A DNA stretch of 38,052 bases from assembly GCA_015655335.1 (NCBI GenBank), contig JAATFF010000068.1, positions 1 through 38,052 of the forward strand. Reading direction: 5' to 3'. Source of the stretch: Lysobacterales bacterium (GTDB lineage Bacteria > Pseudomonadota > Gammaproteobacteria > Xanthomonadales > Rhodanobacteraceae). Every line of letters starts with the position of its first letter. The stretch's first letter is position 1. Of the stretch, positions 2,925-15,370 are shown piece by piece. Position numbers and translations under genes: made by a program. The notes under the pieces were generated by a model. The model did no database searches. It was not told the DNA's origin and worked only from the letters and a program-made list of their open reading frames with translations.

Positions 2925-5900
2925 CTACCAGCCAATGCCAAAGGCCATGTGCTCGGGCTGTTGCGTCGTAATGGTCGTGCTCTGGTTGTTGTTGTCGTCG
3001 TACGAGAAGCCGTAGGCCAGTCCGCTCACCGAGTGTTGATGCCAGAACTGCGAATACGAGTTGGCGGGCGAGGATTGATAATACGTCGATGCATTCGCCC
3101 AGTTCGCGGAAGTAGGCAGCACGCCACGGTTCATCGCTGCGCAGATTTGATTTTCCAGCTGCAACTGGATGGCGTTCTCGTCCTGTTGTTGCGGCGCGCT
3201 TCCCGCAACACCGCTGGCCATCGTCCCTGCGCACTCCAGCACATCTTGCGTGGAGGGCAGCTGTACGACAAAGGTCTCTCCGACGTTGGCCGCAGCGGGA
3301 TTGACCTCGGTAAAGGTGAAGGTCGATCTGGACGTGGTGCCGGTGAACTGGCGCCCGTTGAGAGTCAGCGTTAGCGGCGTGCTGCTGTACTGCGCCCATG
3401 CGCTGGCGATGGTACTGTCGAAGTAGGTTCCGTTGGTTCCACCTGCATTGAAGGTGGTTTCCGCGGGCGACAGAATGCGCAGGCTGTCCGGCGCAGGCGT
3501 GTGGAATACCGTTGGTGTTTGGGCGATGTATTCCTGGTCGAGGTTTGCGATCGACTCGTTGATACCCACCTGCATGTGGTAGGTCTCTTTCGATCCCCAA
3601 ACATCCAGTAGCAGCGGCAGGCCGAACTGATTGACCTGGGTGGTGTTGATAAAGATGCCGCCATTCGTGCCGTAGGTGAACTCGTACCAGTCGTAGTGGA
3701 CGTTGATATTGGGATCGGTGTTGTTGAGCGGGTTGGGCCCGGCGTATCCGTTATTGCCGCCGTTCGCACCGGCCATGATCGACATGTAGAGCGGGCTACC
3801 TTCCGAAATGTAGATGCGTCCAGACGTCAACGGTGGCAGTTGAAGCTGATGGTTGGCCTGAGCAAGCGTGAATGCGTAATGGGGATACGTCTGTCCATTC
3901 GGCGCAACCAGTGCATTGGCAGCCGTGTTGTCCGACACGTTTGCTGGCGTGATCGTGCCGTCGTAGTTGACCCACGAGAGCGCGCCGGTGGCCGGATCGT
4001 TGCCGAGGATCTCGACATAGATCTGGCTGTCCGTCCATGCACCGTTGGTGTTGTTGTTGAGGTCGGTGACAATGACGCCGGGAACGACTGTGTAGCTGGG
4101 CGCAAGGTTGACGCTCAGCGTTGCAGCCGACGATGTCAACGATCCTGCCGTGTTGCTGACCGAGACCGTGAACGCACTGAGGTTATCGGCATACGTGGTT
4201 CCCGGTGTGGTGTAGCTCGTGCTGGTTGCCCCGACAATGGCGGCGCCATTCTTGTACCACTGATAGGCCAGTGAGCCACCGCTGGCTGCCACGGAGAACG
4301 TAACCGTCCGCCCAATCGTGACGGTTTGGCTGGTTGGCGCAGTAGCAATGGCCGGTGCCGTCACCGCCCCCGAACCGGACGCCGGTGTCGTGGTGATCGC
4401 GCTATTGGAAGCCGGCGATGGGCCGGCCGCGTTGATCGCTTCGACAACATAGGTGTACGCGGTCGAGGCGGTCAGGCCTGTGTCGCCGTAAGCGGTGCCA
4501 GTCACGCCATTGGCGACGGCAACACCATTGCGAATCACCGTGTACGTCACGCCGGACGTGGTCGATGCCGTCCATGTGAGATTGATGACGCTGGAGGAAG
4601 CCGCGGTTGCCGCCAGATTGGTAGGCGCGATCGGAATCGCCAGGGTATTGGCGCTGGCTTGCGCGGTCGGTGCCGACGTGCCGGACGCATTGGAAGCCTC
4701 GACCACGTAGTAGTAGGTCGCGTTCGTCGCCAAGCCGGTATCGGAATAGCTGGTGTCGGTGGCTGTGGCGATTTGATTTGCGCTGGAAGGCGTGAAGCCG
4801 GACGTCGTACTGCGGAAAACGTCGTAGACCACGCCGGAAGCCGACGAAGCCGTCCAGTTCACATTGATCTGACTGGCCGACACGGATGTCGCGGTCAGGC
4901 TGCTCGGCGCGCCGATGGGAGCGGAGACCACCTCGATACCATTGACCACGGCGTTATCGGTGATCGCCTTGAACAGCAGCACGATCTGCCCTTGCGCATT
5001 CGCCGTCGCGGTAAAGGGCTCGGCGATCGCGATGTCCTGTCCACCGGCCGTTGCGAAGACGTCGAAATTGCTCAACACCTGCGTGCCGTTGATGCTGACG
5101 TTGAACACGCGCTGTCCCGCCTTGGTCCAGTAGAACTCGTCGAAGTGCAAGCGCACGAGGTAGCTGGCACCCGCGGTGAGACCAGGAAGCGTGTAGCTGA
5201 AGTTATTGCCGACACGCTGGTTCTGATAGACCGACTGCGGCGCGGGGTTGGTCACGCCAGCGGTGTTGATGGTCGCGCCGGTACCGGATGCCGCGCCGCC
5301 GCTGAAATCTTCATCGGCGACGTAAGTGCCGGCTGCGGGACCGCCGGCGCTGATGGCAAGCACATCCGAGCCGCACCCCGAGGTGCCGCAGTTGACGTCG
5401 AACGTGGTTGCCGTGGCGGTGTTGGAAGCCATCGAGGTACCCGCCGAATCGACGGCCTCCACCGTGTAGGAGTACGTGGTGGTGGAAGTGAGACGGGTAT
5501 CGCTATAGGTCGTTCCGGTCAGGCTATTGGCCACCGCGACGCCGTTACGGAATACCGTGTACATCACTCCCGATGCCGCCGAAGCCGTCCAGCTCAGGTT
5601 GATCTGGCTGGAGGAAGCCACCGTTGCTGCGAGGTTCGATGGCGCATTGGGTGGTGTGTTCGCCGCAGACGCGGTTTCAATCTCAATGCCGTTGATCTCG
5701 GCATTGTCTTTGACGGAGGCGAACTGCAGTACGACTTGCCCCTGCGCATTGGCCGTCGCGGCAAACTGCTCGACCACCGCAATATCCTGACCGCCCGCGG
5801 CAGCGAAGACATCGAAGTTGCTCAGCACCTGCGTGCCATTGATGCTGACGTTGAAGACACGCTGTCCGGCTTGCGTCCAATAGAACTCGTCGAAGTGCAG

Positions 5901-8900
5901 GCGCAGCACGTAGGTGGTCCCCGGGGTCAGGCCAGGCAGCGTATAGGTGAAGTTGCCGAAGCGCTGGTTCTGGTACACCGATTGCGGCGCGGGATTGGTC
6001 ACGCCGTTGATGTTGATCGTCGCATTGCTGCCCGATGCCGTACCGCCGTCGAAATCTTCATCGGCGGCGAAGTAGCCCGCACCAGGACCGCCAGCACTGA
6101 TCGCAATGGCGTCCGGGCTTGTGCAGTTTGACGTGCATGTAGAGACGGACGTGGTCACCGTGGCGGTGTTGGACGCCGCCGAAGTACCGGCAGCGTCATT
6201 CGCTTCGACGATGTAGTAGTAAGTGGCGGCAGCAGCCACGCTGGTATCCGAATAGGTGGTTCCCGATGTCGTGCCGATCTGGTTTGCGTTGGACGGTGTA
6301 AATCCGGCAGCGCTGCTGCGATAGATGGTGTAGCTGACCGTGCAGCCACTCCCCGCCGTACTCGCGCCCCACGTCAGGCTCACCTGGTTGGAAGCGTTAG
6401 CGCCAGCGGCCAATGTGCCCGGCGTACTCGGAACAGCGGTGCAACTGTTCTGCTGCACGGCGAGTGTGGCCGCGTTGCTCACGGTCGTGCCAAACACGTC
6501 GCTGACGGCCACGCTGAAGATCGCGCCATTGTTGGCCGCCGCCGTAGCCAGCGTCGTATAGCTGGACGACGTTGCGCCGGCGATGGGGCTTCCGTTTTCA
6601 GACCACTGGTAGGTCAAGCTACCAAGGCCGGTCGCGGCCACACTGAAAGTTGCAGGTTGTCCAGGCGCTACGGTCTGATTGTTTGGTTGTGCGGTAATGG
6701 CAGGCACCGTTCCGGCGTCGTTGCCGGAGACGCACAGCGTGGCACCAGGATAGTTGACGGTGACTTGGTAGTTGGACGTGCCGTCGAAATTCACCACTGA
6801 GGTTTTTGTGGAATCGTTCGGGTCGATGGTTGACGTCCACGTACTCCACGTTCCCGAGAACGCGGTGGTGTTGTTATTGACGCCGCTGATGCTTAGCGCT
6901 TCTGCTTGCGTGGGCAGACGCATGTTGATGCCCGCGCAATAGCTCTGCGCATTCACACCGGTGAACTGCGAACCGGGTGTCGTGTCCGTCATCACGGTGC
7001 GCGTCCAGGTCAACCCGGTCAGGGTATCCGTCACCAGGCTGGGGTTCGATGCGTTGACGGTATATCGATCCGTAGCGGTGCAACACTGCGCGACGTTGTA
7101 GACCTGGAACTCATAGACCGAGTAGCCGTACTGCGTTGCGCGCTGTATCCCGTTCAACCGCACATAACGCCCGATGACGGTCGGGAAGTTGAGCGTTTCC
7201 GTTCCACCCGCCCCGGCGTTGTTGGTGTAGGCCACATTCCATGTCGGATTGGTGGCCGGATCCTGGTTGGTATAGAGGATCTGGTACTGGGTCGCATACG
7301 CGTTTTCCCAGTTGATGATCACCGTGTTGAAGGACTGCGTCGAACCCAGATCGATCTGCAGCCACGAGGGATCGACACCGGGAACAGCAGGCGTAGGCGG
7401 CGCACCGGCGGTCGCCGAGCCCCATCGCGTGGAGAGATTGCCATCGACCGCATTCTCCGGTCCCAAGCATCCCGTGCCCGAGTACGGCGGCGTTGTCGTG
7501 CTATCGGTGCACGCGTTCTGCGTGCTGCTTGACGTCGCAAGCGTATTCAACGCCAGGTTGACACCTGGCGGTGCAAGCGTAATCAGCGCTGCGCTGCTGG
7601 TGACCGGCGCGCTAGCGGCATTGTTCACCGTGACCGTGTACGTGCCGACGTTTGCGGCGCTCACCGCCGGAATCGTATAAGTGAGCGTATTGGACTGTTG
7701 CGTTCCGCTGCTGACAATCGTGGCCGAGCCCCCTGCAGGCGTGAACTGCCACTGATACGTGTACGGCGCAGAGCCGGTAACGATCGCCAAGAACTGAACG
7801 GGCTCGTTGACTGGCGCAATGGTGCTGGCTGGCTGTGAGGCAATCGACACCAGTGTTGCCGCATCGACCGTCACGGCGGCTGTGGACGATTGAACCGTAC
7901 CCAGGTCGTTGGTAACCACGACATAGAAACTTGCACTTCCTGCCGCTGTAAAGATCGGCGTGGTGTACGTGGCATTGGTTGCACCGGCAATGGCACCGGA
8001 GCCAACCTGATACCACTGATATGTCAGTGTCGGCGAACCGGTCGCGGCCACCGTCAGCGTGGCCGATTGCCCATCCACTACCGCTTGGGACGCTGGCTGC
8101 GTGGTGATGACCACGTTCGCTGGCGCATCGACGCTGAGCGTGACGGGCGTGGATGTTACCGTACCGTTGCTGCTGCTGATCGTCACCGTGAAGGTGTCGC
8201 CGTTGTTGGCAGCCGTTGTCGCAGGCGTGGTGTACGTGGCGCTGGTTGCGCCGGCAATCGGGCCGCTTACGTCAGACCACTGATAGCTGAGTGCACCCGA
8301 ACCGGAGGCCACCACGCTGAAGGTTGCTGGATAGCCCGATGTAGTTGCCACGCTCACCGGCGGAACGATGATGGCCGGCGCTTGCGACTGCGAGGAGATA
8401 GGTGGTGCTACCGAGGCCAGCGTAACGCTACCGCTAGTCAGTCCGGGCGCACTCGCCGTCACCGTGACGGTGCCGGCCGTAAACGTGCTGCGCAGGGCGA
8501 TCTTCTGCAACCCGCCTTCGAAGTTCAGTTCCGGATCGCCGGGCGAGTGGAAGAAGGCGTAAGGCACGCCTTGAATCACATTGCTGTTCGCCTGCGAGAA
8601 CGCATCCTGGTAATAGCCGGTCCACGATGGATCAGCCACCAGCTGTTGCGTACCGCCCATGTAGCTGGCCGGCCCGCTGACCGAGAACGTGACGTTGTCC
8701 TTTGCCGTCGGCACAAGATTGCCATTGGCGTCCTCGACCTGTGCGACCACAAAAGCTGCATCCGAACCATTGGCGGTCCACTGAAAAGTGGTGCCGTCAG
8801 GCTTGATCACTTCAGGAACGACGCTAAGAACAATCTTGCTCTCCTGCCCCGCGGTCGTGCGCGTATCGCTTACGCCGGCAACCGGATTGCCATTTGCATC

Positions 8901-11285
8901 GAGGCACTGTGCGGTAACCGTGCCCGGGGCCCAATTCACCATCCAGTGCACTTGCCCCGGCATGACCGTAGTGTTTTGCGAGAGATCGGCGCTGGAATTG
9001 ACGTTCCAAGGATTGGGCGTCTGATCCTGCAGCGGCGTGCCCGTAACCGGATCGCTGGGAACGCCGTTGATGAGCAAGCGCACTCCCGGACAGTTGCTGA
9101 AAGCGTTCTCTTGGAGCGGCGTGCCTGCGGTGTACTCATAGGCGCGGTTCCAGTGATGCGCCAGATGCACGACCGGTTTTACCGTGTACGGTATCCAGTT
9201 GGCCTGATAGATGTAATAGAGCAAGCGCGGAAAACGATTCGCGTCGGTGGAGGAGTAACCGAGCGAGCGCACGAAGTTCACCATGTTGGGCTGATTCTGA
9301 TATTCGGCCCAAAGGCTGACCTCACCCGGCGATTCGGCGAAATACCACTGCGCCATGCCAAACGCGTTGGCCACCCTTCCCCGCCGCCAGTCGTCGAGAT
9401 ACGGCGCCGCAAACGCAAGTTCATAGTCATAGGCCAGACCGCGACCGGTGCCCATGTTGTCCCAATACTCGGCGCCAAAGGCCGGGTTGTTCGGATTCTG
9501 CTGCTTGTTGCCGGCTTCGCAACCTGCGCCGTCGCATTCATCGATGAAGCCGTACGAGGAACTATAAGTACGATCGGCGCTCATGCGTGGATTGATGCTG
9601 TCCCACGTCGTTTCGATGCTGCCCAGTTCGCTCGCAAGCGTCGGATTCATGCCGCCGTTATCGCGCTCCCAATCGAGAATGGAGGGATGGTTACGGTCGC
9701 GGATGATCATGTCGCGATGCAATTCCTGCTTCAGCTGCAGATCGTCGGCGGTCGGATTGGAACTGGCATTCCAGTAGCCTTCGCCGTCGCCGCTGGGCTG
9801 GTCAATCATGATGCCGTAGGCATCGGCAGCTTCCACCATCTCTTCGCTGCTAGTCGAATGGCCAGGGCGCCATACGTTGCCGCCTTGCGCCGCGATCTGC
9901 GCCATGTCGCGCCACCACTGCTCGTCGGGAACCGATGATCCAAGTCCCGGATAGTCGTAGCGGCTGGAACCTCCCCACAGATAAACCGCATGGCCATTGA
10001 AGTAGGGGAAATTCGCATCCCAGGTAATGGTGCGAATTCCCAGCGTGCTTTGCGTCGAATCGACCACGACGCCGTTCACGCTGACGATGTGATACACCTT
10101 GTACAGATACGGCGATCCGCACGAGACCGGCGGCGTTCCACAGCTTGCGTTATTCGGATACCACAACGTCGGGTTGGGTACCGTAATCATCTGATCGAAC
10201 ATCGGCGTCGCGCCGGACGGAAACGTACTGGGCGTCATCGCTGGGACGGCTTGCGTGACCGGCGGCGCTGTAACAACTACGTTGCCTTTTGCGTCCACGA
10301 TCTGCGTTGTCAACGTGACTTGCTGCGTCGCCGTGGTCTCGTTCAGTACATTGGTTTGTACCTCGACGACTGCGGACGTCGCCGTTGCCGTTCCTTGCGC
10401 AGAGCGCACCTCCGATACCGTTCCGGCGTAGGTGCCCCAAGTCTTCTGATTCGAATAGACGTTCGGCGGAATATGAACCGGATTGGTGACGTACAGTTTT
10501 ACGTTCCGGAATAATCCCGCCATCGCCTGGCCGAAACGGAAAGCACCGGAAAAGTTGGGGTTCTCGAACCACGGAGCACCGCGCGAGACATCGATGGCTA
10601 TGACATTGTCCGTGCTGCCATCCGCGACGATATACGGCGTCAGATCAACGACCACCGGAATGAAGCCCACTACGTGAGTAGCCTGCGAATCGGCTGCTAC
10701 TGCGCTGACGCCGGGTAACAACTTCCCGTTTATAAAGATCTGGATGCCGGTGTGCGACCCTTCAACATTGAGCAGGAACTTCTGCGCTGCGTACTTCGGG
10801 TCTACTTTGAAATGCAAACGGTACCAGTTGTCGTTTCCCGTCAACGATCCCTGGCCGCCGCCCGAGGTCTGGTTGATGAAAGTGCGCGGGATATTGGCAT
10901 CGTAGGGCAAACCCACCTGCGTCCAGGATGCACTCGTATCGGAACGCTCGCTAAAGCCGGTCGCCGAGTAGGCCGCCGAGTTGTTGGTGTTTTCGAACCA
11001 CCAGTTACTCTGCGGTGTATTCGACGTAGAACTGGCGTTTCCGATGTATTGCGGAACACCCGCAGCGAGATTGATCGTTTGGCGCTGTGAGCTTGGCAAC
11101 GTCGGCTCTACTTGTTGCGCGTCCACATGACGAGCAGTCAATGACGACGCCAATACAACAACAAACAACGCGAAGACAGCACGCACCCTGCGCGCCGTCG
11201 TGGAGACTCTGCGTTTGGGTCTTAGCGTGTGGATCGTAGGACTGCACTTCGAAGCTATCACTTCCCAATAGGTATGCAGCCCCAC
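2925..11285 (-). CDS. Giant exported multidomain protein: GH2-like N-terminus, Ig/FnIII/discoidin/malectin modules, GH64 beta-1,3-glucanase C-terminus
   Basis: 2786 residues. The GTG start has AAGGGGA at 11291-11297 as ribosome binding site. Order by residue, boundaries approximate: secretion signal with a long basic n-region (h-region 36-51, cleavage near 56); GH2 sugar-binding jelly roll (90-270); GH2 Ig-like sandwich (275-420); GH2 TIM barrel (430-710), with NHPS at 532-535 and probable nucleophile E606 in FGAEYWD; GH2-like C-terminal Ig domains (to about 960); three Ig-like repeats (972-1240); F5/8 type C discoidin (1240-1397); Lcl/DUF1566 domain (1400-1520); Ig-like (1524-1608); FnIII; malectin (1724-1874); FnIII; malectin (1974-2122); two FnIII; Ig-like (2307-2394); GH64 (2397-2786). 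It probably acts outside the cell on beta-1,3-glucan or similar polymer. Both catalytic units lack one expected catalytic acid (G544; N2552). Domain calls are by eye. Confidence 0.85.
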   Translation of the reverse strand: MGLHTYWEVIASKCSPTIHTLRPKRRVSTTARRVRAVFALFVVVLASSLTARHVDAQQVEPTLPSSQRQTINLAAGVPQYIGNASSTSNTPQSNWWFENTNNSAAYSATGFSERSDTSASWTQVGLPYDANIPRTFINQTSGGGQGSLTGNDNWYRLHFKVDPKYAAQKFLLNVEGSHTGIQIFINGKLLPGVSAVAADSQATHVVGFIPVVVDLTPYIVADGSTDNVIAIDVSRGAPWFENPNFSGAFRFGQAMAGLFRNVKLYVTNPVHIPPNVYSNQKTWGTYAGTVSEVRSAQGTATATSAVVEVQTNVLNETTATQQVTLTTQIVDAKGNVVVTAPPVTQAVPAMTPSTFPSGATPMFDQMITVPNPTLWYPNNASCGTPPVSCGSPYLYKVYHIVSVNGVVVDSTQSTLGIRTITWDANFPYFNGHAVYLWGGSSRYDYPGLGSSVPDEQWWRDMAQIAAQGGNVWRPGHSTSSEEMVEAADAYGIMIDQPSGDGEGYWNASSNPTADDLQLKQELHRDMIIRDRNHPSILDWERDNGGMNPTLASELGSIETTWDSINPRMSADRTYSSSYGFIDECDGAGCEAGNKQQNPNNPAFGAEYWDNMGTGRGLAYDYELAFAAPYLDDWRRGRVANAFGMAQWYFAESPGEVSLWAEYQNQPNMVNFVRSLGYSSTDANRFPRLLYYIYQANWIPYTVKPVVHLAHHWNRAYEYTAGTPLQENAFSNCPGVRLLINGVPSDPVTGTPLQDQTPNPWNVNSSADLSQNTTVMPGQVHWMVNWAPGTVTAQCLDANGNPVAGVSDTRTTAGQESKIVLSVVPEVIKPDGTTFQWTANGSDAAFVVAQVEDANGNLVPTAKDNVTFSVSGPASYMGGTQQLVADPSWTGYYQDAFSQANSNVIQGVPYAFFHSPGDPELNFEGGLQKIALRSTFTAGTVTVTASAPGLTSGSVTLASVAPPISSQSQAPAIIVPPVSVATTSGYPATFSVVASGSGALSYQWSDVSGPIAGATSATYTTPATTAANNGDTFTVTISSSNGTVTSTPVTLSVDAPANVVITTQPASQAVVDGQSATLTVAATGSPTLTYQWYQVGSGAIAGATNATYTTPIFTAAGSASFYVVVTNDLGTVQSSTAAVTVDAATLVSIASQPASTIAPVNEPVQFLAIVTGSAPYTYQWQFTPAGGSATIVSSGTQQSNTLTYTIPAVSAANVGTYTVTVNNAASAPVTSSAALITLAPPGVNLALNTLATSSSTQNACTDSTTTPPYSGTGCLGPENAVDGNLSTRWGSATAGAPPTPAVPGVDPSWLQIDLGSTQSFNTVIINWENAYATQYQILYTNQDPATNPTWNVAYTNNAGAGGTETLNFPTVIGRYVRLNGIQRATQYGYSVYEFQVYNVAQCCTATDRYTVNASNPSLVTDTLTGLTWTRTVMTDTTPGSQFTGVNAQSYCAGINMRLPTQAEALSISGVNNNTTAFSGTWSTWTSTIDPNDSTKTSVVNFDGTSNYQVTVNYPGATLCVSGNDAGTVPAITAQPNNQTVAPGQPATFSVAATGLGSLTYQWSENGSPIAGATSSSYTTLATAAANNGAIFSVAVSDVFGTTVSNAATLAVQQNSCTAVPSTPGTLAAGANASNQVSLTWGASTAGSGCTVSYTIYRSSAAGFTPSNANQIGTTSGTTYSDTSVAAAATYYYIVEANDAAGTSAASNTATVTTSVSTCTSNCTSPDAIAISAGGPGAGYFAADEDFDGGTASGSNATININGVTNPAPQSVYQNQRFGNFTYTLPGLTPGTTYVLRLHFDEFYWTQAGQRVFNVSINGTQVLSNFDVFAAAGGQDIAVVEQFAATANAQGQVVLQFASVKDNAEINGIEIETASAANTPPNAPSNLAATVASSSQINLSWTASAASGVMYTVFRNGVAVANSLTGTTYSDTRLTSTTTYSYTVEAVDSAGTSMASNTATATTFDVNCGTSGCGSDVLAISAGGPAAGTYVADEDFSGGAASGTGATINTAGVTNPAPQSVYQNQRVGNNFSYTLPGLTAGASYLVRLHFDEFYWTKAGQRVFNVSINGTQVLSNFDVFATAGGQDIAIAEPFTATANAQGQIVLLFKAITDNAVVNGIEVVSAPIGAPSSLTATSVSASQINVNWTASSASGVVYDVFRSTTSGFTPSSANQIATATDTSYSDTGLATNATYYYVVEASNASGTSAPTAQASANTLAIPIAPTNLAATAASSSVINLTWTASTTSGVTYTVIRNGVAVANGVTGTAYGDTGLTASTAYTYVVEAINAAGPSPASNSAITTTPASGSGAVTAPAIATAPTSQTVTIGRTVTFSVAASGGSLAYQWYKNGAAIVGATSTSYTTPGTTYADNLSAFTVSVSNTAGSLTSSAATLSVNLAPSYTVVPGVIVTDLNNNTNGAWTDSQIYVEILGNDPATGALSWVNYDGTITPANVSDNTAANALVAPNGQTYPHYAFTLAQANHQLQLPPLTSGRIYISEGSPLYMSIMAGANGGNNGYAGPNPLNNTDPNINVHYDWYEFTYGTNGGIFINTTQVNQFGLPLLLDVWGSKETYHMQVGINESIANLDQEYIAQTPTVFHTPAPDSLRILSPAETTFNAGGTNGTYFDSTIASAWAQYSSTPLTLTLNGRQFTGTTSRSTFTFTEVNPAAANVGETFVVQLPSTQDVLECAGTMASGVAGSAPQQQDENAIQLQLENQICAAMNRGVLPTSANWANASTYYQSSPANSYSQFWHQHSVSGLAYGFSYDDNNNQSTTITTQQPEHMAFGIGW
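4915..6118 (-). repeat. Internal duplication: two malectin plus FnIII units within the giant gene
   Basis: Two malectin-like (CBM57-type) domains are encoded at about 5665-6115 and 4920-5365. Both open with AISAGGP and share NPAPQSVYQNQR, LRLHFDEFYWT-type residues and the run VFNVSINGTQVLSNFDVFA. By eye they are about three quarters identical at protein level, with matching DNA stretches. Each is followed by an FnIII domain ending in TYSDT...AGTS. A recent in-frame duplication of a malectin-FnIII unit explains this best. Confidence 0.8.
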
Positions 11286-11318
11286 TGTCTTCCCCTTATG
11301 CGATCCAACCCCTCACAC

Positions 11319-11344
11319 AAAATATGTGGCGTGGCACATATTTT
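11319..11344 (-). promoter_or_regulatory. 10-bp perfect inverted repeat just upstream of the giant gene
   Basis: AAAATATGTG (11319-11328) and CACATATTTT (11335-11344) are exact reverse complements around a 6-nt centre. The repeat lies 34-59 bases before the GTG start. It could be a protein operator near the promoter or, if transcription starts further upstream, a leader hairpin. TGTG and CACA are 6 bases apart, not the 8 of a CRP/Clp site. Confidence 0.6.
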
Positions 11345-11519
11345 CCGTCGAACGGATGCAAGCCTGGGCGCGACACTGTCGCGCTCAATGGACTGACTCC
11401 GCATGAACCCCTGTAGGGGTGACTAAATCATGTGCGATGCAAATGATCCGCGCAATGCAAGAAGGAAGGTTTTTAAGAATATTTCGTGTATTTCTTTATA
11501 TATTGCGACGCAGTAAACA

Positions 11520-11547
11520 TTTAGACGTCTAAATTTAGACGTCTAAA
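11520..11547. promoter_or_regulatory. Two abutting perfect 14-bp palindromes (candidate operator)
   Basis: TTTAGACGTCTAAA occurs at 11520-11533 and again, with no spacer, at 11534-11547; each copy is a perfect palindrome. Two dimer sites on adjacent turns suggest cooperative binding by a regulator with helix-turn-helix dimers. The site lies 235 bases before the giant gene, and no regulator gene is adjacent. The regulator family is unknown to me. Confidence 0.75.
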
Positions 11548-11776
11548 TTTGCAACAAAAATTAAATAATTAGATTGATGAGACTTCTACAAACATCAATC
11601 TTTATTTTCTGTTCTGAAGCGTGGATACGTTTATCTGGTCGCATTAACGGGTCTAGTGTTCTGAGCAAACGTATGCCCGGCGTTTGATCGATGGAATCAC
11701 GGGCGAAGCCAAGGCGCGTGCAAGAAAGCGAAAAAGTATCGTTTTTGATAGCGGCTGCATCATTCCGGGCAGAGAC

Positions 11777-13354
11777 CTAGCGCTTGGCCAGCACTTCCAC
11801 CAATACGACATCATTGGATCGCATGGGAATGGACAAGTTTGCGATTCCATTGGAATCGACCACTAGCGCGTGTATTTCGGGGCGATCCGCCGTCGTGACC
11901 TGCAGTTGTCTCAGTTGATCGTCACTAAGTGATGCGGGTGAATCCATGCGCAAATAAGCCGAATAGGCATCATTGGCATCGTAGCCCGTTCGATAAATTG
12001 CGACTTGGTATTCACCGGGTTGCATATGCTCAAGATCGAGCCTCACTACTTGGGCAGGTTGCGACGGAAATACCTTGGTATAGAACGATCGATCGCTCTG
12101 CGTCTGTTTGGGTGAGACGAAATTCCACACGAGTGCCTTGAGCACGTGGTCATTCCACGTGACATAACTTTCCGTGTCGGTGGTTTTCAGTTCGGTGCGG
12201 CCCAGGCGATGCAGGTATTTGTAGGCGAAATAAGCCGGTTTGCGAATGCCTTGTGGATTCAGCAAACCAAAGCCGCCCTGGAATGGTGCAGTCGGCGGGC
12301 CCGGTTCTTCGAACAGATCGCTGAAGGTCCAGTAGCTCATACCCTGCGCCATGCCTTCACAGGCTTTGAGTTTGCTGAGAATGTAGGCAGCACTCACGTA
12401 CGAGTCGTGCACGGGATCGCGCGGCGTGTAGCTGGTGCTCCATTCGGTGAAGTAAAGCGGCAACCCTGGTCTGGAGGAAGTGTCGATCTTCTCGCGTACG
12501 CGACGCACGTCGCCGACGATCGCATCCGGAGACGGCGACAGCTTCGTGTCGCTTTCGCCATGCTCATCGAGGAATCCACCGTCTACGCCGTACGTATGCG
12601 TGGTGACGAAATCGAGTGGCACGCCGGCCTGAGTAGTGTGCTGCATCAACTCAGGCACCCATGCCGCGCCGGCGGTGGCCGGCCCACCAACCTTCAATTG
12701 CGGATCGACCCGCTTGATGGTTCGCGCGGTTGCATCGTAGAGATCGAAGTACGCCTTTTGATCGCCGCCCTGCCAGAAAAGAGCCAGGTTGGGCTCGTTC
12801 CATACTTCGAAATACCAAGCCCTTATTTCCTGTTGTCCGTAGCGTTGCTCCAGATGGCGCACGAAGGCGTCAACCAATCCGGTCCACTTCGGAAGTTGCG
12901 GATGCGAAGTGTTGCCCTTCCAGTAAAAGATGTGCTGGTCGGATGTCTTCATGGCCTCCGGCGTAAACCCCAATTCAACGAAGGGCCGGATACCTATCGC
13001 AAGCAATCGGTCGTAGAGGCGGTCGATCTTCGTCCAGTCGTAGACCGGCTTGCCGTTCACTTCCCGATATGTGCCCAGCACGTCGTGAAAAATCGCGTGA
13101 AAGCGAATGTAACGCGGCCCCAATTCCTCGCTTACGGTCTTGAGCTGAGCGAGACTGTCATCGCGCATCAGCGTTCCCGGATAGTCCGAGCCGATGGAAA
13201 ATTCGTAGTAGCGATCAAGCGGCGATGACGCGCCGTCCACGTCAATGGCGATGTGCCGTATATCTTGACCGGCTTGTACCGTAGGCATCATCAAGCAAAG
13301 AACAATCGCTGCCACCGATGCGCGCAACATGAGGTTCATCCGTCGAGCGCGCAT
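11777..13354 (-). CDS. xynB: GH39 beta-xylosidase, exported
   Basis: 525 residues with a signal peptide (hydrophobic residues about 9-28, cleavage near VQA-GQ). The TIM barrel carries the GH39 acid/base E187 in EVWNEPN and the nucleophile E304 in YFTEWS, plus the GH39 features LGPRYIRFHAIFHD and RPFVELGFTPEAM. The C-terminal 130 residues form the usual beta sandwich. The enzyme should release xylose from xylo-oligosaccharides in the periplasm. Its ATG shares one base with the TGA of the upstream abfA, so the two are co-transcribed and probably translationally coupled. An alternative start is the Met at residue 6. The symbol follows the GH39 XynB naming used in Xanthomonas and Caulobacter; substrate is inferred from family and partner. 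Confidence 0.88.
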   Translation of the reverse strand: MRARRMNLMLRASVAAIVLCLMMPTVQAGQDIRHIAIDVDGASSPLDRYYEFSIGSDYPGTLMRDDSLAQLKTVSEELGPRYIRFHAIFHDVLGTYREVNGKPVYDWTKIDRLYDRLLAIGIRPFVELGFTPEAMKTSDQHIFYWKGNTSHPQLPKWTGLVDAFVRHLEQRYGQQEIRAWYFEVWNEPNLALFWQGGDQKAYFDLYDATARTIKRVDPQLKVGGPATAGAAWVPELMQHTTQAGVPLDFVTTHTYGVDGGFLDEHGESDTKLSPSPDAIVGDVRRVREKIDTSSRPGLPLYFTEWSTSYTPRDPVHDSYVSAAYILSKLKACEGMAQGMSYWTFSDLFEEPGPPTAPFQGGFGLLNPQGIRKPAYFAYKYLHRLGRTELKTTDTESYVTWNDHVLKALVWNFVSPKQTQSDRSFYTKVFPSQPAQVVRLDLEHMQPGEYQVAIYRTGYDANDAYSAYLRMDSPASLSDDQLRQLQVTTADRPEIHALVVDSNGIANLSIPMRSNDVVLVEVLAKR

Positions 13355-14916
13355 CAGTGAAGATCCAGCACCACGACGGATTTCGGCGGCAACACGGCCG
13401 TCACCACTCCTTCCTTGAATGTTGCACCGTCAAAGACTGCTGGCTTGACTCGGTCCGGCTGATCGAACGTGTTGACGGCGTTGATCTCCGCCGCCGTCAG
13501 CTCGCGACCATGCACAGTCGTTCCTTTGACGCCAAGTAACGTCAAGCGAACGGTATCTGTATGGTGCGGATCGAGATTCACCAGCGCGACATGCAGGACA
13601 CCGGCCGCATCGCGTCCCGCAGTAGCGTGAACACCTGGCACCGACGTATTCCCATAGCGATACGCCGGTACCTGTACGTCTACCGGGAGATAGGTGGCGC
13701 CCTGAAACACCTTGTACATGTCGAACACGTAGTACGTTGGCGTCAACACCATCCGCGACTGATCGGTGAGAATCATCGCCTGCAGCACGTTGACCATTTG
13801 TGCGATGTTGGCCATGCGCACGCGGTCCGCATGCTTTTGGAAGATGTCCAGCGTGACGGCTGCCGAAAGCGCGTCGCGTAGGCTGTTCTGCTGATAGAGC
13901 GCGGCATCGCCCGTGCCGGGATCCTGATCCATCCAATTGCCCCATTCGTCGACAACCAACGCCACACGTTTCTTGGGATCGTATTTATCCATCACCGCGC
14001 TGTGTTTGGCGATGAGATCGTCCATGCGCAAGGCGCCCTGCAGCGTGGACATCCATTCACCCTCGCTGAACTGCGTGGCCGAACCTTTGTGCGACCAGCT
14101 GCCGGTCGGAATGGTGTAGTTATGCAGGCTGATCGCATCGATCTGGCTGCCCGCGATCGACATGACGGTGTCGGTCCAGCCGACGTCGTCGGCATTCGCG
14201 CCGCTGGCGACTCTGACAAGGGACGCATTGTGCGGCGCATGCACGAACGTGGCGTACTGACGGTAGACATCGGCATACAACTGCGGACGCATGGACCCGC
14301 CGCACCCCCACATCTCGTTGCCGATGCCGACGTAATCGAGCTTCCACGGTTTATCGCGTCCATTCGCGCGCCGCTGCTGCGCCAGGCTCGAATGCCCGTC
14401 CGCGGTGATGTATTCCATCCATTGGCTCATCTCGCGCGGCGTGCCGGTGCCAACATTGATACTGAGATAAGCCTTGGCGCCGATCAGCTCGGCGAAGTCC
14501 ATGAACTCGTGCGTACCGAACTCGTTGCTGTCTTCGCCGCCCCAGGACGCATTCATGCGCACGGGCCGCTTGTCACGCGGGCCAATGCCGTCGCGCCAGT
14601 CGTATTGATCGGCAAAGCAGCCGCCGGGCCAGCGGATAACTGGCACCTTGATGGCTTTCAGCGCCTCGACCACGTCCTTGCGATATCCCCTGATATTGGG
14701 AATGGAGGAATGTTCCCCAACCCAGATACCACCGTAGATGCCTCGCCCGAGCTGCTCGGCGAACTGGCCGTAGATTTCCGGATGGATGACCGGCCCGGGA
14801 CGGTCTGCATGCACGATAACCTGGGCTTCCTGAGTGGCATCTGCGTATCCATGGCCCGATACCAGCACCAGCAACGCGACAAGACCACTTCTCCACACTC
14901 GAACCTTTGCCTTCAT
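13354..14916 (-). CDS. abfA: GH51 alpha-L-arabinofuranosidase, exported
   Basis: 520 residues from the ATG at 14916, which has GGGGAGAGG as ribosome binding site and starts a clean signal peptide (MKAKVRVWRSGLVALLVLVSG, cleavage near ADA). An upstream in-frame start at 14952 is less likely. The GH51 signature is complete: HPEIYGQFAEQLGRGIYGG, VIRWPGGCFADQYDW, acid/base E201 in GIGNEMWG, and nucleophile E324 in VDEWGN. A C-terminal beta sandwich follows. It removes arabinofuranosyl side chains from arabinoxylan or arabinan, opening the backbone to the xylosidase encoded next in the operon. Length and catalytic residues fit an active enzyme. Confidence 0.92.
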   Translation of the reverse strand: MKAKVRVWRSGLVALLVLVSGHGYADATQEAQVIVHADRPGPVIHPEIYGQFAEQLGRGIYGGIWVGEHSSIPNIRGYRKDVVEALKAIKVPVIRWPGGCFADQYDWRDGIGPRDKRPVRMNASWGGEDSNEFGTHEFMDFAELIGAKAYLSINVGTGTPREMSQWMEYITADGHSSLAQQRRANGRDKPWKLDYVGIGNEMWGCGGSMRPQLYADVYRQYATFVHAPHNASLVRVASGANADDVGWTDTVMSIAGSQIDAISLHNYTIPTGSWSHKGSATQFSEGEWMSTLQGALRMDDLIAKHSAVMDKYDPKKRVALVVDEWGNWMDQDPGTGDAALYQQNSLRDALSAAVTLDIFQKHADRVRMANIAQMVNVLQAMILTDQSRMVLTPTYYVFDMYKVFQGATYLPVDVQVPAYRYGNTSVPGVHATAGRDAAGVLHVALVNLDPHHTDTVRLTLLGVKGTTVHGRELTAAEINAVNTFDQPDRVKPAVFDGATFKEGVVTAVLPPKSVVVLDLH

Positions 14917-15370
14917 GAGCCTCTCCCCAGGGAAACACAGGAAGTACAGCAAATTTCGGGTAACGATTTCCAGGGAAAGGCTTTTATGATTTTGATCAGT
15001 GTACCTGTGTTCTTACGCCCAGCCGAGAGCGGCGTAGCAAAAGCTGCCTGTTTGGTGCATGTTTCGACTTTCCAACGCACATACGCGAATTACTTTGGGC
15101 GATGTGAAGAGATAAAGAGCGAAATGCCGATGAGAGTGCCCATCGCAAACATGATCCATCCAATCATGGGCTATCTATCGGAATGCGGAACCGAACCACC
15201 CAAGGCACCAAGGCCAGCAGCAACGATCGGTTTAATATGACTCGATCGATCCTTTACCGGGCCACAGGCTAACTTTGGTGACTCCTATGGCATCGCTCCC
15301 CCTGCCGCAATAAATTCGTTAGTCTAGGCCGCGATAGGAAAAGCAGGCGCGATAACTGCATGGAATCGAC
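14917..15370. other. Divergent promoter region of abfA
   Basis: The 454-bp gap holds the abfA promoter. GGTAACGATTTCC at 14959-14971 loosely resembles LacI-family operators (CG-centred, GGTAnCGnT core), such as the xyl-box described in Xanthomonas, but its right arm is poor, so this is only a hint. A 25-codon minus-strand frame at 15090-15167 would encode MIGWIMFAMGTLIGISLFIS plus a short tail, a single membrane helix. It has no convincing ribosome binding site and may be a decayed gene or chance. Nothing else is evident. Confidence 0.35.

Follow-up and report, generated by a model that had tools for sequence, protein, structure and literature searches.

The stretch of DNA analysed here (the window, 38,052 nucleotides long) raises the question of what is done by a single, probably exported protein that carries a GH2-like half at its N-terminus and a GH64 domain at its C-terminus, and whether such a protein cuts glycans or binds them. 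The gene lies at exactly 2925..11285 on the minus strand, and the translation of its open reading frame gives it 2786 codons, from a GTG start at 11285 to a stop at 2925, which bears out the uninterrupted frame of 2786 residues picked out earlier in a sequence-only reading of the window. A purine-rich stretch, AAGGGGAAGACA, is found upstream of the GTG start. The N-terminal region (residues 1-56, 11118..11285, on the minus strand as are all the features of the gene given below) was judged by eye and by comparison with orthologues, and a charged stretch, a hydrophobic core and VDA|QQ make up a Sec-like N-terminus of the kind that had been proposed. The first 60 residues are weakly conserved, with a mean identity of 0.40 against 13 orthologues.

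The GH2-like half (residues 60-960, 8406..11108) is recognised by Pfam, by NCBIfam and by its match to a solved GH2 structure. Pfam places within it a GH2 N domain (residues 152-269) and a DUF4982 domain (727-803) that both score below cut-off, together with a GH2 sandwich (303-418), a GH2 TIM barrel (428-633) and a GH2_C5 domain (from residue 835) that are above it, and the GH2 matches in NCBIfam, to models of beta-galactosidase and of beta-glucuronidase, all fall far short of the cut-offs. A jelly-roll N domain (below its curated cut-off), an Ig-like domain and a TIM barrel in this order place the half in the GH2 sequence family, and are the three-domain arrangement that the sequence-only reading had described. 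The GH64 domain (residues 2407-2782, 2940..4067) does sit at the extreme C-terminus as suggested, with a Pfam match of E 7.3e-77 and 259.5 bits over positions 5-368 of a 370-position profile, a significant match across the whole profile length, and is further recognised by its match to solved GH64 structures and by its predicted fold.

Between the two ends Pfam finds five Ig_3 stretches, one F5/8 type C, one Lcl_C, three fn3 and two malectin stretches, so that every kind of module named beforehand (Ig, discoidin, Lcl/DUF1566, FnIII and malectin) is present, with Lcl_C below cut-off, and the order is that of a GH2 half, about twelve modules and GH64. Ig-like modules, three by length although their number and boundaries are approximate, fill the region between the GH2 half and the F5/8 type C module (residues about 970-1240, 7566..8378), and are followed by the F5/8 type C, or discoidin, module itself (residues 1263-1390, 7116..7499) and the Lcl_C/DUF1566-like module (residues 1417-1507, 6765..7037). 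The first malectin module (residues about 1725-1872, 5670..6113) is one of the two Pfam stretches and has limits that were judged by eye, on its resemblance to the second (residues 1975-2102, 4980..5363), after which come the best of the three fn3 stretches (residues 2126-2210, 4656..4910) and the last Ig-like module (residues 2317-2392, 4110..4337). In seven proteins compared by Pfam the middle modules vary by lineage and the GH2 and GH64 ends are fixed; the window copy and that of ZG23-2 have malectin and fn3, L051 has malectin, and L017, L018, L047 and L055 have two to four F5/8 type C modules and no malectin at the threshold used.

A frame of this length might arise as an assembly artefact or from two genes taken as one, and the source genome of the window is a fragmented draft of 169 contigs that is 86% complete. 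This explanation is very improbable, as a GH2 profile searched against 197 Rhodanobacteraceae genomes hit 29 of them, from three genera, with 30 matches at E <= 1e-60, and all 30 share a single frame with GH64 when contig and frame are compared with a GH64 search of the family, the one-contig genomes G010, G035 and G180 being amongst them. Further fused frames are found in Acidobacteriaceae, one of them on a complete chromosome, and the orthologous frames seen in independent genomes run uninterrupted for 2146-3380 amino acids, therefore chance or misassembly is excluded. Domain searches did detect both GH2 and GH64 and no joining of two genes was found, these being the two points on which the sequence-only reading had said that it might fail, and the search of Rhodanobacteraceae that it proposed returned the same GH2 and GH64 frame in all 30 close GH2 matches.

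The same gene, or most of it, is found at 37 other loci in Dyella (the genus of the window), two further Rhodanobacteraceae genera and Acidobacteriaceae, of which 25 come from a scan of named genomes and 12 from the other two genera. The GH2 end is present at 36 of the 37 and the GH64 end likewise at 36, with L053 being without the GH2 end and L049 without the GH64 end on the stretch read. The scan of named genomes gave 27 loci, 25 with the fused gene or part of it (13 of the Dyella clade and 12 of Acidobacteriaceae, including Edaphobacter, Silvibacterium, Granulicella and other members) and two in Verrucomicrobia that match the Ig region only. The 13 named Dyella-clade loci come under the title Dyella in ten cases and Rhodanobacter in two; the remaining one, L032, carries a Dyella-type copy, and its title, Candidatus Eremiobacteraeota, is probably wrong. 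Within the genus Dyella the fused gene is present in 13 of the 16 genomes searched and is not in G003, G006 or G015. Across the phylum, 398 sampled genomes gave a match to the GH2 profile at E <= 1e-60 in just one case, that of the window's genome. Separate, unfused GH64 genes of about 400-660 amino acids also occur in several genomes of the family, and in G008, G013 and G014 they are found beside a fused copy.

It had been suggested that the fusion is without a characterised precedent, and this is so to the extent that no description of a GH2-GH64 fusion was recognised among the titles and abstract openings returned by searches of a library of open papers, or in the GH64 and GH2 passages of PMC6252331 and PMC7922503. 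The fusion is real, but it is not unique to the window, being a conserved family of Rhodanobacteraceae and Acidobacteriaceae. The domains are of known kinds; what is new is that they form a fused family from which catalytic residues have been lost.

The catalytic pair of the GH64 enzyme LPHase (3GD9) is Glu154 and Asp170 in the available part of PMC4758615, and Glu153 and Asp169 have the same roles in GluY according to the portion of PMC8394091 at hand. The spacing in the alignment to 3gd0 puts this pair at Glu2535 and Asn2552 of the fused protein. Alignment and comparison of copies show that the acid, Glu2535 (3681..3683), is kept, with Glu present in 37 of 37 copies as in active GH64 enzymes, and that the base position, Asn2552 (codon AAT, 3630..3632), which corresponds to Asp170 of LPHase, does not hold the Asp of an active enzyme in the window. 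It is Asn in all 14 Dyella-clade copies, whereas it is Asp in all 23 others (11 of Acidobacteriaceae, 11 of one genus and 1 of another), a count that leaves aside seven GH64 loci from 5 other Gammaproteobacteria genomes where the motif search did not find the site. A fifteenth Dyella-clade copy, that of G010 (L028), has Asn too. Dyella copies use AAT or AAC at this position, and the eight Acidobacteriaceae copies read for it have GAT or GAC.

How exact the change is can be gauged from the 81 columns of GH64 that are invariant in 26 non-Dyella fused rows. The base is the only one of them that is changed in all 15 Dyella rows, three others changing in one or two rows, a count made after the Asn had been seen and with some rows from close kin, so that it is a gauge of exactness and no blind test. 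The ten unfused GH64 rows in the same count keep the Asp and with it the full catalytic pair. Trp163 is one of the sugar-binding residues of LPHase in the part of PMC4758615 available, and its position is Phe or Tyr in Dyella and likewise in the Asp-bearing Acidobacteriaceae copies, therefore it does not separate the two groups. The structure prediction proposed in the sequence-only reading was of use at this end of the protein, where the GH64 model has a mean pLDDT of 73.4 and matches a solved GH64, 5h4e, with TM 0.82/0.85. The closest solved GH64 chains are 9vp9 (E 3.2e-67), 5h4e and 5h9x. The model of the GH2 half is poor, with a mean pLDDT of 46.9.

In the GH2 half a canonical catalytic residue is missing from every fused copy read. 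The canonical acid/base of a retaining GH2 is read as W-x-x-x-N-E, and at this position the window has E540-R-D-N543-G544 (9654..9668), with Gly544 instead of Glu and with Glu540 conserved. The reading W-E-x-x-N-G is found in 37 of 37 fused copies, from which the canonical Glu is absent. The nucleophile position, Glu606 in GAEYW (9468..9470), is by alignment kept in 37 of 37, as is QPSGDGE, which contains Glu502 (9780..9782), a candidate substitute acid by its conservation and by its alignment to a Glu in 6hpd; both Glu502 and Glu540 are invariant across the 37 copies. As a control, a search of 117 family genomes with the GH2 profile at E <= 1e-12 gave 17 unfused GH2 genes, all of which keep N-E, 16 of them reading W-x-x-G-N-E and the last, L126, WEVTLNE. 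L126 (G128:C31:214378-215013) has a Glu after the Trp as in the fused family as well as the canonical N-E, with one residue more before it.

At E <= 1e-20 the family profile picks out 21 distinct PDB chain sequences, which carry the names GH2, beta-galactosidase or glycoside hydrolase, and the nearest solved GH2 is 6hpd (E 5e-80), which we take to be P17_GH2. Its acid/base site reads WEGGNW, so the canonical Glu is also absent there, and both Glu502 and Glu540 of the fused protein align to Glu residues in it. P17_GH2 of the Formosa ulvan pathway is counted among the ulvan-degrading enzymes in the part of PMC8511951 available, and therefore GH2 activity without that Glu may be real. The structure prediction is of too low a quality to place Glu502 or Glu540 in an active site; the half may cut with a relocated acid, either Glu540 or Glu502, or may only bind.

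Loss of a catalytic residue might be the beginning of decay, but the rates of substitution argue otherwise. For the Dyella clade, 91 pairwise comparisons of each half give a median dN/dS of 0.086 in GH64 and 0.065 in GH2, and in eight Acidobacteriaceae copies it is 0.125 for GH64 and 0.095 for GH2 (28 pairs, two of the GH64 pairs having saturated dS), all by a simple count in which synonymous differences are high, with median pS of 0.50-0.68. In both halves the ratio is no higher in the Asn-bearing Dyella than in the Asp-bearing Acidobacteriaceae. To judge from these ratios, purifying selection acts on both halves, and the loss of the base has not been followed by decay of the Dyella GH64. The 14 Dyella-clade copies form one group (100/99) in the GH2 tree, beside two Acidobacteriaceae copies (99/99), and in the GH64 tree the 14 together with one Acidobacteriaceae copy form a group of 100/97, although a constrained tree with ten Acidobacteriaceae as a single clade does not fit significantly worse (p-AU 0.162). 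Transfer of the gene between the phyla is most likely, with no direction claimed.

Two genes that have one base in common lie upstream of the fused gene on the same strand, the nearer of GH39 (11777-13354) and the other like those for alpha-L-arabinofuranosidases (13354-14952). Relatives of either (E <= 1e-15) were found at none of 27 other loci, some of which are short stretches, therefore these neighbours are not used as evidence of function. In the 491-bp gap after the GH39 gene are two tandem copies of TTTAGACGTCTAAA (11520..11547), each a perfect 14-bp palindrome and the pair a candidate operator 235-262 bp before the start codon. Over the 800-1000 bp read, the palindrome is found before 13 of the 15 Dyella-clade fused genes, being exact in 10 and with one mismatch in L036, L040 and L042; at L033 and at the copy of G010 any match has four or more mismatches, and the palindrome is counted as absent. 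Before the four Acidobacteriaceae fused genes checked it is matched only with four or more mismatches. The window's genome has two exact palindromes, both before the fused gene, and six sites with up to one mismatch, from which about 0.001 sites would be expected in 600 bp; the 13 orthologous cases have related leaders and are not independent. An inverted repeat, AAAATATGTG / CACATATTTT, lies between the palindromes and the start codon at 11319-11344, with a similar one before the gene in L035. There is no Rfam match at gathering score in 11200-11800 that would point to an RNA regulator in the leader, and neither a sigma-70-like promoter nor a terminator was found in 11250-11800.

The other sites of the palindrome give some idea of what might bind it. 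Of the four single-mismatch sites elsewhere in the window's genome, the first separates cysG (siroheme synthase) from a LysR-type gene, a second is between a PLP enzyme and an alpha/beta hydrolase that are arranged as cysteine synthase and metX are in other Dyella, the third is close to a DAHP synthase and around the fourth there is no gene start. Ten other Dyella genomes have 12 exact sites elsewhere, of which 6 adjoin metX and/or cysteine synthase genes (one copy each of metX, metB and cysteine synthase was named and the rest were grouped by similarity), the other 6 being near a kumamolisin-type protease, a TonB receptor and PI-PLC, a LacI-type regulator, a histidine kinase and, in two cases, genes without a match. 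Sites found in the family's other genera, with one mismatch at most, adjoin cysG, TonB receptors, a subtilase, an RHS-repeat protein or unmatched genes; others fall inside frames or have no start nearby. The palindrome is more numerous in the family genus g19, with 10 sites in G127 and 9 in G115 (up to one mismatch). At the metX/cysteine synthase sites L142, L144, L146, L147 and L148 it is extended to 20 bp, ACGTTTAGACGTCTAAACGT, and nearly so at L141, an extension that sets these sites apart from those before the fused gene.

The MetJ box is AGACGTCT. Table 1 of PMC4239095, a paper available in part, has no Xanthomonadales entry for MetJ, and the text of the same part gives the operator of SamR, the methionine regulator of Xanthomonadales, as a 24-bp palindrome with ATC-10 nt-GAT; by eye no ATC-N10-GAT, as taken from that text, occurs across the 14-bp palindrome and its flanks. 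With such mixed neighbours, it is no more than a fair guess that the palindrome is the site of a sulfur-amino-acid regulator. Sulfur sparing was also considered and set aside, the fused protein having 1.68% Cys+Met, which is not clearly below the content of seven other proteins of the window (1.06-3.55%).

The sequence-only reading spoke of a machine that degrades or binds polymers. With Asn at the GH64 base and Gly at the GH2 acid/base, degradation is doubtful for the window's copy, and binding fits better. Our preferred reading of the conserved and altered residues, with a probability of about one half, is that of a secreted glucan-binding protein derived from a two-enzyme degrader of beta-glucan, with GH64 turned into a binding module in Dyella. 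The chain would probably be exported by Sec and then by type II secretion; gspD, the gene for the type II secretin in the window's genome (G000:C108:73317-75320), was seen to have one in-frame TAG. A GH64 domain that has kept its fold and its catalytic acid and lost its base would bind beta-1,3-glucan, such as that of the fungal wall, callose or curdlan, with little or no cleavage. Modules of the Ig, discoidin, fn3 and malectin kinds often bind glycans or act as spacers, and here they may give spacing or reach and further glycan contacts, whilst the GH2 half would handle a second glycan. The likely target would be the fungal wall, because GH64 acts on beta-1,3-glucan and the hosts of the gene are presumably soil bacteria.

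In principle GH64 enzymes could use another acid as base, and with a relocated acid/base in GH2 and modules that hold the substrate the protein would then be a fully active two-enzyme degrader with which Dyella digests fungal or plant walls. Such a protein would account for the strong conservation of both halves, for the retention of Glu2535 and for the invariance of Glu606, Glu502 and Glu540 in all 37 copies, the latter two aligned to Glu in 6hpd; it is nonetheless rather unlikely, as the one invariant GH64 column to change uniformly, in every Dyella-clade copy, is that of an Asp to which the available parts of PMC8394091 and PMC4758615 give a catalytic role. Should neither half cut, the protein would be a double pseudoenzyme, purely an adhesin or a component of the matrix, by which cells are held to fungal glucan and, through the GH2 half, to a second glycan. 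Both canonical catalytic residues are indeed missing in the window copy and the intervening modules are of suitable kinds, but an invariant GH2 nucleophile with neighbouring acids suggests that chemistry is still selected in that half, and the Acidobacteriaceae and the other two genera keep the GH64 catalytic pair, which makes this doubtful.

A bolder history can be imagined for the Dyella branch, where a fused degrader common to Acidobacteriaceae, its GH2 acid/base already lost, would have become a catalytically silent giant adhesin by a single change of Asp to Asn at the GH64 base, and its promoter would have gained an operator common to cysteine and methionine biosynthesis genes, whereby a shortage of sulfur amino acids would lead cells to attach to fungal glucan. 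As a whole this is quite improbable. Beta-1,3-glucanase, the name to be expected from profile-based annotation, is probably wrong for the Dyella clade, and the family would be a natural experiment on the turning of a glycosidase into a binding module, for which close relatives that keep the Asp, from another phylum, could serve as controls. Common to Acidobacteriaceae and Rhodanobacteraceae, the fused family may aid attachment to, or use of, fungal wall glucan.

Compared with known systems, the GH64 domain has the same sequence family, predicted fold and catalytic Glu as the LPHase-type enzymes (3gd0/3gd9 and 5h9x, PbBgl64A) and as 5h4e and 9vp9, but differs from the solved enzymes in having Asn for Asp at the base in the Dyella clade and in its place at the end of a chain of 2786 residues, whereas PbBgl64A carries one CBM56 and GluY one RICIN domain in the parts of PMC13251364 and PMC8394091 available. 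The GH2 half, with DUF4982 and GH2_C5, has the domain order of GH2 beta-galactosidase-like enzymes and is like 6hpd in having W-E-x-x-N without the canonical Glu, but is distant from it in sequence, is fused to GH64 and reads N-G where 6hpd reads N-W. GH64 and thaumatin-like proteins are placed in one superfamily in the available part of PMC13251364, which also describes fungal beta-1,3-glucan binders with a thaumatin-like part. These serve as a working analogy only for the fused protein, from which they differ in being fungal, in their other domain partners and in having no GH2.
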